A stretch of DNA of 60,171 nucleotides from NCBI GenBank assembly GCA_018821785.1, contig JAHJLI010000032.1, positions 1 through 60,171 on the forward strand. The letters are read 5' to 3'. The stretch comes from Pseudomonadota bacterium (GTDB taxonomy: Bacteria > Desulfobacterota > Desulfobulbia > Desulfobulbales > Desulfocapsaceae). Shown piece by piece: positions 20,293 to 23,692 of the stretch. The stretch's first letter is position 1. Each line of letters begins with the position of its first letter. The position numbers and the translations under genes are program-made. The notes under the pieces are model-generated. The model did not search any database, was not told the DNA's origin, and saw only the letters and a program-made list of their open reading frames with translations.

Positions 20293-20607
20293 CGTAGCCT
20301 CCGTTTTTTGTTTGTTTCTAGTTCAGACCTAAGAAAACGTTGCCAGACTGAAAATTCTTCGATATTGCCAAAACAATTCTTTTCAGTCCAGATGAAGGCT
20401 ATCAGACAATTTTACAAAAAGCAAAATCATGAAAATATACCTTGCCAATGATTTTCAAATATTGACACTTTGCCGATTGTCGTGGATCATAGAGCAGTTT
20501 CACCGGCTATTATATGTTTGATGCCGGACAAGCATGATGTGCAGGCGGCAGGCAGGGTTTCCCCCGCTGCCGCTGTAAATCCCGTTTTCAACCAAAGAGT
20601 GATTTTC
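20293..20607. promoter_or_regulatory. Divergent leader region with two strong hairpins before the UGA-containing gene
   Basis: A 315-base region between divergent genes. Hairpin A pairs CCGGC (20503-20507) with GCCGG (20523-20527). Hairpin B pairs GCGGCAG (20545-20551) with CTGCCGC (20567-20573) around a 15-base loop. A TTGACA at 20462-20467 could be a -35 element. The structures lie 35-100 bases before ATG 20608 and may be a regulatory leader. I recognise no known riboswitch class. Confidence 0.4.
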
Positions 20608-22047
20608 ATGAAACACACCCTGCCATTCCCCACAATTTTCCTGTCTCTGCTGGCCGTTATCCTGGCTGGAGCTTCTGCAATGGCTACAAACAACCTTCCT
20701 CCTGTGCAAAAACTCCGATTATTTTTTTCCGGAAATGTTCAGGCTGAGCTTGGACCATGCGGCTGAGGCAGCCATTCAATGGGCGGTCTGTCCAAAAAAG
20801 CATATCAAATCAGCATCCATTCCGACGAGAAGGCACTCCCCACCGTCCTTCTCGATGCCGGCAACCTGTTGTTCAAGCAACCGACTGTTGCCCACTCGCA
20901 GGAGTTGGTTACCGCCGCAGGCATATTGCAAATCTATAAACAGATGGCCTATGACGCAGTGGCAGTCGGACCACTAGACCTCGCCGCCGGCATCGAATTC
21001 TTAAAAGATGGTAAATTGGAGGATTTCCCCTGGCTGTCGGCCAACCTCACCGATAAAAACCATAAGCTGATCTTTCCGGCGGTCAGGATAATTGAACGCG
21101 GTGAAATGAAAATCGGTGTTATTGGACTCACAGGGCAGATCGCTGATACATCGCAGGAGGCTATCGTCACCGACTGGCGCAAGGTTCTCCCTGAACATCT
21201 GCAGCGGTTAACAAAAGAATGTCAGCTGGTCATCGTCATCTCAAGCCTTACAGGCAAAGACAATGCCGAACTCACTCGGCAATTCCCCCAGGTGCATATA
21301 CTTATCAGCGCTGATCGGCAACAGGGCAATATTGTCCCACGGGTTGATAACAGCACCCTCATCACCCAGACCATGAATCAAGGAAAATACCTTGGGGTTC
21401 TGAACCTCGATTGGATTCCCGGCAGTTCCTGGGCCAAAGACCGGGTGCAGGAGAAGCAGACAGCCTCAGAAAAGGAAACGATTCACCCTCTCAGCAGTTT
21501 CAGCGGCAACTTTATTGCTCTTGGTAAAAATCTTCCGGATGATCAGCAAATCGCCGCTCATGTTGAAGAGATAAAACAACAAATTAACAAGCATAATCAG
21601 AAATTGGCCAGCCCTGACAAGCAGCAGGCTGCTGCCGACAACTCGCCCTTCTCCGGCCTCGCCGGTTTTGCCAGCTGCCAGGAGTGTCATCCTCTGCAAA
21701 CCACGTTTTGGAACTCAACCAGACACGCTCAGGCCTACGCCACCCTGCAACGGCAACATCAAAATTTCAACCTGGATTGCCTGCCCTGCCATATCACCAA
21801 AAACCCTGCCCCAAAAAGCACAGCTCCCTCGCCGGTAGAGGCACTCCTGGCTCTTCCTCCCACCCTGCAGTCGGTCGGTTGCGAGGCCTGCCACGGAGCA
21901 GGGCAGGCCCATGCCGATAGCCCCGACACTATCAAACCGCAAAGAAAAGTCGAAGAAAAAATCTGCGTCGCCTGCCACACCAAAGAAAGAGATCCAGGTT
22001 TCGATTACCGGCAGAAAATCCCTAAGGTACGTTGCCCTGCCGGGTAG
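20608..22047 (+). CDS. Putative selenoprotein: metallophosphoesterase-like domain fused to a tetrahaem cytochrome c554-like domain, with in-frame UGA (Sec53)
   Basis: A 479-residue protein if UGA 20764-20766 is read as selenocysteine. It starts at ATG 20608 with a Sec-type signal peptide (MKHTLPFPTIFLSLLAVILA). The UGA lies in ELGPCG-U-GSHSMGGLSKK; 5'-nucleotidase/UshA-like relatives have PCGC-xxxx-GGL there, so UGA replaces the second Cys. The same frame then stays open for 427 codons. The middle follows the phosphoesterase fold, but metal-site motifs are degenerate (DAGNLL for D-GD-L, AVGPLDL for GNHE-like, ISADRQ for GGHxH). The C-terminus has four CxxCH motifs (Cys 357, 391, 425, 453), ending DYRQKIPKVRC as in cytochrome-c554-type relatives. 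Periplasmic redox or respiratory function is inferred. A sequencing error or nonsense mutation is the alternative. Confidence 0.82.
20764..20793 (+). promoter_or_regulatory. Candidate bacterial SECIS element
   Basis: After the UGA, GGGC (20781-20784) pairs with GUCC (20790-20793), including one G-U pair, and closes the loop GGUCU (20785-20789); a flanking U-A pair extends the helix. From memory, the E. coli fdhF SECIS also has a loop containing GGUCU starting 18 nt after its UGA; here the loop also starts 18 nt after. The bulged U of the fdhF helix is not obvious. A competing hairpin, CCAUUCAAUGG, exists just upstream. Confidence 0.7.
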
Positions 22048-22059
22048 TGAAGAAGAGGA

Positions 22060-23070
22060 TCACTTGCCGACACCGCACAACTGGAGGAGATAATAAAACA
22101 GGCCGGCAACAATTGCCGAAGCCGGAATGGTAACAACCCAGGCGAGTGCCAGGTTGGCGGCAAGCTCCCAGCGAACCGCCGACAGGCGCTTGGACGAGCC
22201 GGTACCAAAAATACAGGCGGTAATGGTGTGGGTGGTGGAAATCGGCGCGCCGAGTACCGAGGCGCCGGTGATAATCAAAGATGCTGAGGTTTCCGCCGCC
22301 AGGCCATTCACCATTTCAAGCTTGGTTATTCGATTGCCCATGGTTTTAATGATTTTCCAACCGCCCATCGCCGTGCCGAGGCCCATGGCCACCGCACAGG
22401 ACAATTTCACCCAAAACGGCACCTCAATGCTGCCGATTTGATGAAATAAAAGCAAGGCCAGGGTGATTACCCCCATGGTCTTCTGAGCATCGTTGAGACC
22501 ATGGCTGGTAGCCATGAAGGCCGCCGAGAGAATCCTTACTTTTTTAATCCTCTGGTTGACCGTCCTTCGATCAGTTCCCTTCAGCAGAAACTGTAACATC
22601 AGGGTCATGCCATAGGCGATGGCAAATCCGGCCAGAGGCGAGAGAATCAATGGCAGGATAATTTTGCTGAGGATACTCGAACTATTGAGGCTGGCGAAAC
22701 CGGCATGGGTGACCGCCGCGCCGATCAGGCCACCGATGAGGGCATGGGAAGAGGAGGAAGGAAAACCGAAATACCAGGTGAGGAGGTTCCAGGCGATGGC
22801 GCCGATGAGGGCCGCCAGGACCAGAATTTGACTGCCCATGACTACTTCCGTGTTGACTATGCCCTTGCCCAGGGTATGCGCCACTTCACTTCCGAGCAAG
22901 GCTCCGACAAGGTTCAACACCGCCGCCATGATTACCGCAGTTCGCGGAGATAACACCTTGGTGGTAACCACAGTGGCTATGGCATTGGCGCAGTCGTGCA
23001 CCCCGTTGGTGAAATCAAAGATCAGGGCGACGACAACGATAACAACGAGAAGCAACGGGACATCAAGCAT
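22060..23070 (-). CDS. pit: Inorganic phosphate transporter, PiT family
   Basis: A 336-residue, about ten-TM carrier with two PiT signatures: DFTNGVHDCANAIATVV near the N-terminus and SHGLNDAQKTMGVI in the second half, each preceded by conserved helices. PiT proteins import phosphate as a metal-phosphate complex or with cations. The gene begins within the last 8 bases of the upstream DUF47 gene, the standard pit operon arrangement, and ends 12 bases from the convergent selenoprotein candidate. Length is short for Pit but typical of the delta-proteobacterial DUF47-linked class. Confidence 0.93.
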   Translation of the reverse strand: MLDVPLLLVVIVVVALIFDFTNGVHDCANAIATVVTTKVLSPRTAVIMAAVLNLVGALLGSEVAHTLGKGIVNTEVVMGSQILVLAALIGAIAWNLLTWYFGFPSSSSHALIGGLIGAAVTHAGFASLNSSSILSKIILPLILSPLAGFAIAYGMTLMLQFLLKGTDRRTVNQRIKKVRILSAAFMATSHGLNDAQKTMGVITLALLLFHQIGSIEVPFWVKLSCAVAMGLGTAMGGWKIIKTMGNRITKLEMVNGLAAETSASLIITGASVLGAPISTTHTITACIFGTGSSKRLSAVRWELAANLALAWVVTIPASAIVAGLFYYLLQLCGVGK

Positions 23071-23692
23071 TTTTCAACACCACCTCTTCAATGGCATCCA
23101 CCAGATCATCTATTCGCTCAATCACCTGCTCTATGCGATCATAGACCTGTATCCATTTGATGATATCCACCACTCCGCTGATTTCACTGACAGGTCCATC
23201 CTGGAGCTCCGACAGACCGGTACTGAGCAGCATCTCACAATCCTGTTTGAGATCTTTGCTTTCCCTTACCAAGGGCCCAACTTCCTCTTTACCCTGCAGG
23301 GCAAAGATCAGTTTTCCAGTGCAAGCGGCCATTAAACTGATGTTCTGCACCATTTTCTTGGCTGGAAAACGTATGCGGCTAAAACCGGAGGTGTGGGTGC
23401 GGGAGGCGATGCTTTTCAGGAAGTTGATGGAATCTTCCTGGGCCAGGTTGATCCGGTAGATGTCTTCACGATCGATAGGGGTAATGAAGGAACCTGAGAG
23501 CTGGCGGGCAATTTCCCGGCATAGTTCATCGCCCTGTTCTTCCTTTATAGAGATGCGTTTAAATGCTTCGTCTTCTGCTTTATAATCATTGAAAAGCTGG
23601 CTCAGCTCGGAGGCGACCTCCTTGAGAATTTCATTTTGCTGAATGAGCAGATCAAAAAAACGGATGGATTTGGGAAAGAGAGTGAATGCCAT
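23063..23692 (-). CDS. DUF47 family (PhoU-like) Pit accessory protein
   Basis: A 209-residue, mostly helical cytosolic protein with the PhoU-like pattern FFDLLIQQNEILKEVASELS, EQGDELCREIARQLSGSFITP and IDREDIYRINLAQEDSINFL. DUF47 proteins regulate the neighbouring low-affinity phosphate carrier. The gene overlaps pit by 8 bases, so the two are translationally coupled. No Pho-box was identified upstream. Function as a Pit regulator is family knowledge plus context. Confidence 0.9.
   Translation of the reverse strand: MAFTLFPKSIRFFDLLIQQNEILKEVASELSQLFNDYKAEDEAFKRISIKEEQGDELCREIARQLSGSFITPIDREDIYRINLAQEDSINFLKSIASRTHTSGFSRIRFPAKKMVQNISLMAACTGKLIFALQGKEEVGPLVRESKDLKQDCEMLLSTGLSELQDGPVSEISGVVDIIKWIQVYDRIEQVIERIDDLVDAIEEVVLKNA

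Follow-up and report, generated by a model that had tools for sequence, protein, structure and literature searches.

Does the UGA at positions 20764-20766 end a short reading frame, or is it read as selenocysteine (Sec), and what kind of protein results if it is? The codon lies on a contig from a member of the Desulfocapsaceae (assembly GCA_018821785.1, contig JAHJLI010000032.1), of which 60,171 nucleotides, here called the window, were analysed. An earlier note on this DNA had proposed an undescribed selenoprotein in which Sec takes the place of Cys in an UshA-like protein fused to four haem sites. Our reading keeps the Sec on a Cys position and the UshA-like, four-haem architecture, but not the undescribed status.

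A single reading frame across the UGA

Translated with TGA as Sec, positions 20608-22047 give a single frame of 479 residues with U53 at 20764-20766 (Table 1). PCG stands upstream, with PCG-UGA forming residues 50-53, and GSHSMGGLSKK follows. The two open reading frames that the earlier note saw on either side of the UGA are thus one frame on translation, its "427 further codons" agree with our count of 426 residues plus the stop, and its four CxxCH haem sites were found to start at residues 357, 391, 425 and 453. Two Pfam families match the protein, Cytochrome_C554 at 47.1 bits (cut-off 20.8) and Cytochrome_C7 at 28.9 bits (cut-off 24.8). A profile built from 27 relatives matches the solved 5'-nucleotidases 3ivd and 1ush in its front part, while the matches of its rear part are to cytochrome c-554 (1bvb) and to 6i5b, an uncharacterised protein. 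The frame is more than a chance extension because the match to the NCBIfam model NF041198 runs across the TGA, the same TGA occurs in the nearest relatives, and a hairpin is conserved behind it.

Table 1. Features of the selenoprotein gene and its surroundings, in window coordinates
Feature	Position	Strand	Remarks
UshA-like (seleno)protein gene, NF041198	20608-22047	+	479 residues with TGA as Sec; TAG stop 22045-22047
Signal-peptide-like N-terminus MKHTLPFPTIFLSLLAVILAGASAMA	20608-20685	+	Called by eye; start aligns with the two closest relatives
CxU motif	20758-20766	+	Cys51 (TGC), Gly52 (GGC), Sec53 (TGA 20764-20766)
Metallophosphoesterase (5'-nucleotidase N-terminal)-like domain	20713-21459	+	Most positions for metal and catalytic ligands hold other residues
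Tetrahaem cytochrome c554-like domain	21673-21990	+	Pfam PF13435 and PF14522; profile match to 1bvb
SECIS-type hairpin	20779-20795	+	Stem UGGGC/GUCCA (20780-20784 with 20790-20794), loop GGUCU 20785-20789
Sigma-70-like promoter TTGACA-17-GATCAT	20462-20490	+	Consensus match only; conserved in the closest relatives L062 and L063
PHO4/PiT-family phosphate transporter	22060-23070	-	Convergent neighbour; context only, no system membership claimed
PhoU_div (DUF47)	23063-23692	-	Next to the phosphate transporter; context only

Decoding of the UGA

Two of the checks that the earlier note had suggested for its proposal are the residue that relatives carry at position 53 and the presence of sel genes in the genome; neither refutes the proposal. 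Both nearest relatives, at 70% and 64% identity along the full length, have TGA at the same codon. Fifty family loci were then drawn from among the class matches listed (30 given directly, 20 fetched); codon 53 in these 50 listed loci is TGA in 38 and TGC or TGT in 12, with no other codon. The Cys codons belong to the stop-free rows among the matches listed (L017, L020 and L041-L050), where TGC or TGT stands at the UGA position in 12 of 12. The residue is therefore conserved as either Cys or TGA at exactly this place, and the claim that the UGA sits on a Cys codon stands for the matches listed.

The sel genes were likewise all found. The source genome holds selA (624.9 bits), selB (356.2 bits against a cut-off of 242.25), a tRNA-Sec gene (69.9 bits, anticodon tca) and two selD genes over their cut-off, each with an in-frame TGA of its own (L086 on contig C175 and L087 on contig C156). 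SelB and the Sec-tRNA would decode the UGA at 20764. A second tRNA of the same genome, at L079 1501-1591 on contig C289, lies over the Rfam tRNA-Sec threshold (54.7 bits) and is called tRNA-Cys (gca) by ARAGORN.

Two other ways of reading the codon have to be weighed. The UGA could be a real stop codon or arise from a sequencing error, with the downstream frame a separate gene or a pseudogene; it is a stop under table 11, and a separate 422-codon reading frame could begin at the ATG at 20779. Against this stand the TGA or Cys codon at every one of the 50 family loci among the matches listed, the conserved hairpin and the complete Sec machinery, which together make it very improbable. Frameshift, pseudogene and true stop were rejected on the recurrence of the same TGA in many genomes together with the retention of the hairpin. 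Decoding of the UGA as Trp, or readthrough by a near-cognate tRNA, seems more improbable still, and nothing was found in its favour: the codon is replaced by Cys and never by Trp in the 12 stop-free relatives listed, on which ground Trp decoding was rejected, a tRNA-Sec gene with anticodon tca is present, and the one tRNA-Trp inspected has the anticodon cca. As judged by sequence comparison, the reading of the UGA at 20764-20766 as Sec is strongly supported.

A conserved hairpin behind the UGA

Counting the U of UGA as 0, offsets 15-20 pair with offsets 26-31 around the loop GGUCU to form a SECIS-type hairpin. In the window the outermost, sixth pair (20779/20795) is A-A and does not form. The five inner pairs form in all 40 UGA forms of our alignment A2, the window included, as compared with 2 of its 12 Cys forms. 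In four UGA forms that lie outside this alignment (L052, L054, L057 and L069) all six positions pair, the loop being GGTCT in three and AGTCT in one, which brings the five inner pairs to 44 of 44 over all UGA forms examined. The loop sequence GGTCT is found in 35 of the 40 UGA forms and in 4 of the 12 Cys forms, and the outermost pair of the 40 UGA forms is UA in 18, CG in 11 and unpaired in 11, the window being among the last.

The codons were also compared. Gly59 is GGC and Leu61 is CTG in 40 of 40 UGA forms, while Gly85, Gly128, Gly259, Leu88 and Leu194 use mixed codons in the same forms. Because the codons of Gly59 and Leu61 are fixed while other conserved Gly and Leu codons vary, constraint acts on the RNA as well as on the protein. 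The resulting signature GGC GGT CTG, held with UGA and relaxed in the Cys forms, could be used to test the shorter TGA-bearing relatives that occur across the phylum and score below the family cut-off.

Pairing cells make up 95.4% of the total, versus at most 58.3% when the alignment is slid by 1 to 3 columns. Both the covariation score and the number of cells changed on both sides are higher than in any of 500 shuffles. Two pairs are changed on both sides, a number that 13 of the 500 shuffles reach. The count of pair types is not above chance, being attained in 500 of 500 shuffles. When the 61 bases of the window around the UGA were folded by themselves, z was -0.26; 73 of 200 shuffles reached an equal or better fold, and the structure of lowest energy is not the SECIS hairpin alone. 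Rfam at gathering scores has no match in the window, and a known RNA element was discarded on that account. Given this fold and the lack of an Rfam match, the argument for the hairpin comes from comparison and not from energy.

A selenoprotein family that already has a name

In the NCBIfam scan the protein scores 461.8 bits against NF041198 (UshA_like_PCGU, "UshA-like (seleno)protein", an equivalog model with a cut-off of 275), and the first matched stretch, residues 17-289, spans the TGA. On the genome, two stretches in the same frame match: the first spans model positions 5-287 and contains one TGA, and the second, over positions 336-518, covers the haem part with 188.9 bits and shows the C-terminal haem region to be present. 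All 27 members of our alignment A1 match NF041198 at E <= 1e-5. Against NF049981, UshA-like (seleno)protein family 2, the protein reaches 53.6 bits, below the cut-off of 140, and it falls outside that family. We regard it as very probable that the window protein is a tetrahaem member of the NF041198 family whose UGA is decoded as Sec.

The family had also been listed in the literature. In extracts of PMC2398784 (2008), the UshA-like protein (COG0737) is entered as a CxU selenoprotein. The entry gives 76, 20 and 92, by our reading the counts of Sec sequences, of samples and of homologues with Cys. Extracts of PMC9312934 (2022) give the UshA-like protein (COG0737) with CxU, those of PMC13188914 (2026) give NF041198 as CxU and enter the UshA-like family 2 separately as CxxU, and an excerpt of PMC7435645 counts COG0737 UshA among predicted selenoproteins. 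These excerpts on UshA-like or COG0737 selenoproteins describe neither a function nor a haem part. The claim of novelty is refuted by the NF041198 model and by the listings in the excerpts of PMC2398784, PMC9312934 and PMC13188914. Since the family is already named in databases and papers, the window gene is an ordinary, well-supported member of it and no discovery. The Sec prediction is secure yet already known, and interest shifts to the role of a widespread family.

Distribution, haem domains and exchange of Sec and Cys

Among the genomes of the class that were searched, 190 of 257 exceed the NF041198 cut-off. In the phylum sample (completeness at least 95) 10 of 59 genomes do so, the window's own included, and each of the ten matches carries one TGA. 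The phylum sample also contains further, shorter TGA-bearing matches and stop-free ones below the cut-off. Two family matches contain a TAG in frame in addition to the TGA (G169 contig C40 48265-49503 and G270 contig C1 441233-442339). Single-protein scans of the genome_contigs and viral_contigs collections found no relatives, and a plasmid search returned seven distant matches, of which the six annotated ones are named nucleotidases or similar.

For the comparisons of members, several rows were set aside: L030 as a near-copy of L029; L009, L010 and L061 as the window's own gene; L065-L067 and L072-L074 as lying in the same genes as L051-L053; L071, read as an ordinary 5'-nucleotidase-type gene; and L075 and L076, where only the haem part matches. 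L052, L054, L057 and L069 escaped the first motif search, which required PCG followed by TGA or Cys and then by GG. The TGA of these loci is preceded by PCG, GCG, ACG and ACG, respectively, so that Gly or Ala replaces Pro in the last three, and L052 has GSL for GGL. The first three carry four CxxCH in frame and L069 carries none.

Four CxxCH sites occur in 49 of the 52 distinct aligned rows and in 3 of the 4 rows found later, or 52 of 56 in total, a share that is probably inflated because the rows are mostly the top-scoring ones among the matches listed and the model itself includes the haem part. A tetrahaem tail is the usual state among the high-scoring members examined and no speciality of the window copy. 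Four members of the same genus (L064, L068, L069 and L070) lack the four haem sites and keep CGU, with one extra Gly in L068 (PCGGU); on the coding strand within their fetched flanks no CxxCH is left. Because they retain CGU or CGGU, the role of CxU, whatever it is, does not depend on fused haems. In the tree, from which L069 is absent, L068 groups with the haem-bearing L053 (pair support 96/70), and the haem domain has therefore probably been lost more than once.

The same kind of analysis was applied to the Sec position itself. In the tree of 40 Sec and 12 Cys rows three changes are needed, and the well-supported branches also force three. The Cys forms lie among the Sec forms, which, under a midpoint root only, fits three replacements of Sec by Cys. 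Genome G242 has both a Sec copy (L040) and a Cys copy (L042), a pair that is useful for comparing the two chemistries.

Promoter and neighbouring genes

The promoter candidate of Table 1 sits about 120 bases ahead of the start codon. An upstream hairpin was considered and rejected, being no better than shuffles in a stretch that is poorly conserved in L063. The divergent neighbour of the window gene encodes a solute-binding protein. Among the 41 loci whose neighbours were mapped, a manganese-dependent inorganic pyrophosphatase is the next downstream gene, on the opposite strand, in 21 (L051, L053-L060, L092-L094, L097-L099, L101-L103, L105, L108 and L109), the neighbours having been taken from simple longest-ORF calls and one of the 21 having been named by NCBIfam. 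The window differs from these loci in that its convergent gene is the phosphate transporter with PhoU_div instead. Upstream, 15 of the 41 loci have a RarA-like ATPase; the one that was scanned falls below the RarA cut-off. None of the neighbours at the 41 mapped loci names a substrate. That the recurrent pyrophosphatase is encoded on the other strand speaks against a shared operon, and an operon partner that would reveal the substrate was rejected for this reason and because the neighbours differ.

A decayed metal site beside a retained CxU

In alignments with 1ush and 3ivd, the window protein has N43, Q45, N86, P122, L123, A126, D236 and Q238 at positions that, by our reading, correspond to the metal ligands and the His-Asp catalytic dyad of UshA. 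As the alignment is read, the window protein thus does not have the UshA set of metal ligands together with the dyad. Over 52 aligned rows residue 43 is Asp in 38 and Asn in 14. The remaining ligand and dyad positions vary, and His is found at residue 45 in 8 of these rows and at residue 123 also in 8. The remark in the earlier note that the "phosphoesterase metal residues look degenerate" thus extends to these 52 rows. Cys51, Gly52, Sec/Cys53, Asp124, Gly128, Gly59 and Gly60 are invariant over the same rows, although the invariance of PCG-U/C is in part a matter of construction, as the 52 rows were picked with that motif. With the ligand positions varying and Cys51-Gly52-Sec/Cys53 staying, the phosphoesterase site appears to have decayed while CxU was kept. 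A single-sequence AlphaFold model of the protein has a mean pLDDT of 37.8, too low for a Sec-haem distance to be read from it.

The arrangement suggests a redox role as the most likely function, and the redox centre that the earlier note had considered is plausible. The protein would be exported, probably to the periplasm, and carry haems attached at its four CxxCH sites. The CxU pair would lie in the loop that follows the first UshA metal ligands and could cycle between a selenol/thiol and a selenenylsulfide form, with electrons passing to or from the c554-like haems and thence the periplasmic cytochrome pool. The variation of the UshA-ligand positions next to a constant CxU, and the c554-like C-terminus, speak for this redox step from CxU to the haems, which, judged from sequence, we consider quite possible, if short of an even chance. 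We tentatively picture the protein as a hydrolase fold turned oxidoreductase, in which a Cys-Gly-Sec redox pair wired to a tetrahaem module would replace the decayed di-metal site. We know of no characterised selenol-to-haem electron-transfer enzyme of this kind. If true, a selenol beside a decayed phosphoesterase site and linked to four haems would make this a redox enzyme of a new type.

Several of the observations can be turned the other way. Cys-Gly-Sec could, with nearby Asp or Asn residues, make up a new metal site, and the protein could be a metal-dependent hydrolase or a metal sensor, its haems serving only for tuning or anchoring. CxU follows directly on the strand with the first UshA metal ligands (NDxxGE-x-PCGU); Asp83 (49 of 52), Asp124 (52 of 52) and Asn219 (51 of 52) are retained; and a metal could still be bound by Asp/Asn43 together with the invariant Asp124. 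The haem domain is dispensable in some members, and the same-genus members without it keep CGU or CGGU, which counts against the redox role as well. On the other side, most rows have other residues at the positions of the UshA and 3ivd His ligands and dyad, and Sec is seldom kept as a plain structural metal ligand. The extracts of PMC2398784 name UshA-like, SelD and FdhA as the exceptions among major families containing conserved Cys-based redox motifs, which favours a metal site and speaks against the redox role. On balance we judge such a metal site unlikely, and retain electron transfer between CxU and the haems as our tentative proposal.

Comparison with known systems

The hairpin shares with that of E. 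coli fdhF the GGTCT (GGUCU) loop that starts at offset 21 from the U of UGA. It differs in that the six-pair register does not fit fdhF (0 of 6 pairs), where we read the stem as shifted by one. Among protein families, NF041198 has in common with the window protein the PCG-U/C motif, the 5'-nucleotidase-like domain and the C-terminal haem part, all within a model of 519 positions; model positions 288-335 are left unmatched, and the linker before the haems is shorter in the window protein and its two nearest relatives. Family 2 (NF049981) has a related phosphoesterase-like domain, but the window protein lies below its cut-off. The SoxB thiosulfohydrolase (TIGR04486; 2wdc) also has a phosphoesterase-like domain, weakly homologous at 29.9 bits, and the window protein is far under the SoxB cut-off of 550. 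With E. coli UshA and other 5'-nucleotidases (1ush, 3ivd) the N-terminal domain is homologous by sequence; unlike them, the window protein has most metal-ligand and catalytic positions replaced and has gained CxU and haems. Cytochrome c554 (PF13435, 1bvb) shares the haem-rich region, which is C-terminal in the window protein. In 1bvb this is a chain of 211 residues without a phosphoesterase-like part, whereas in the window protein the c554-like region is a fused domain.
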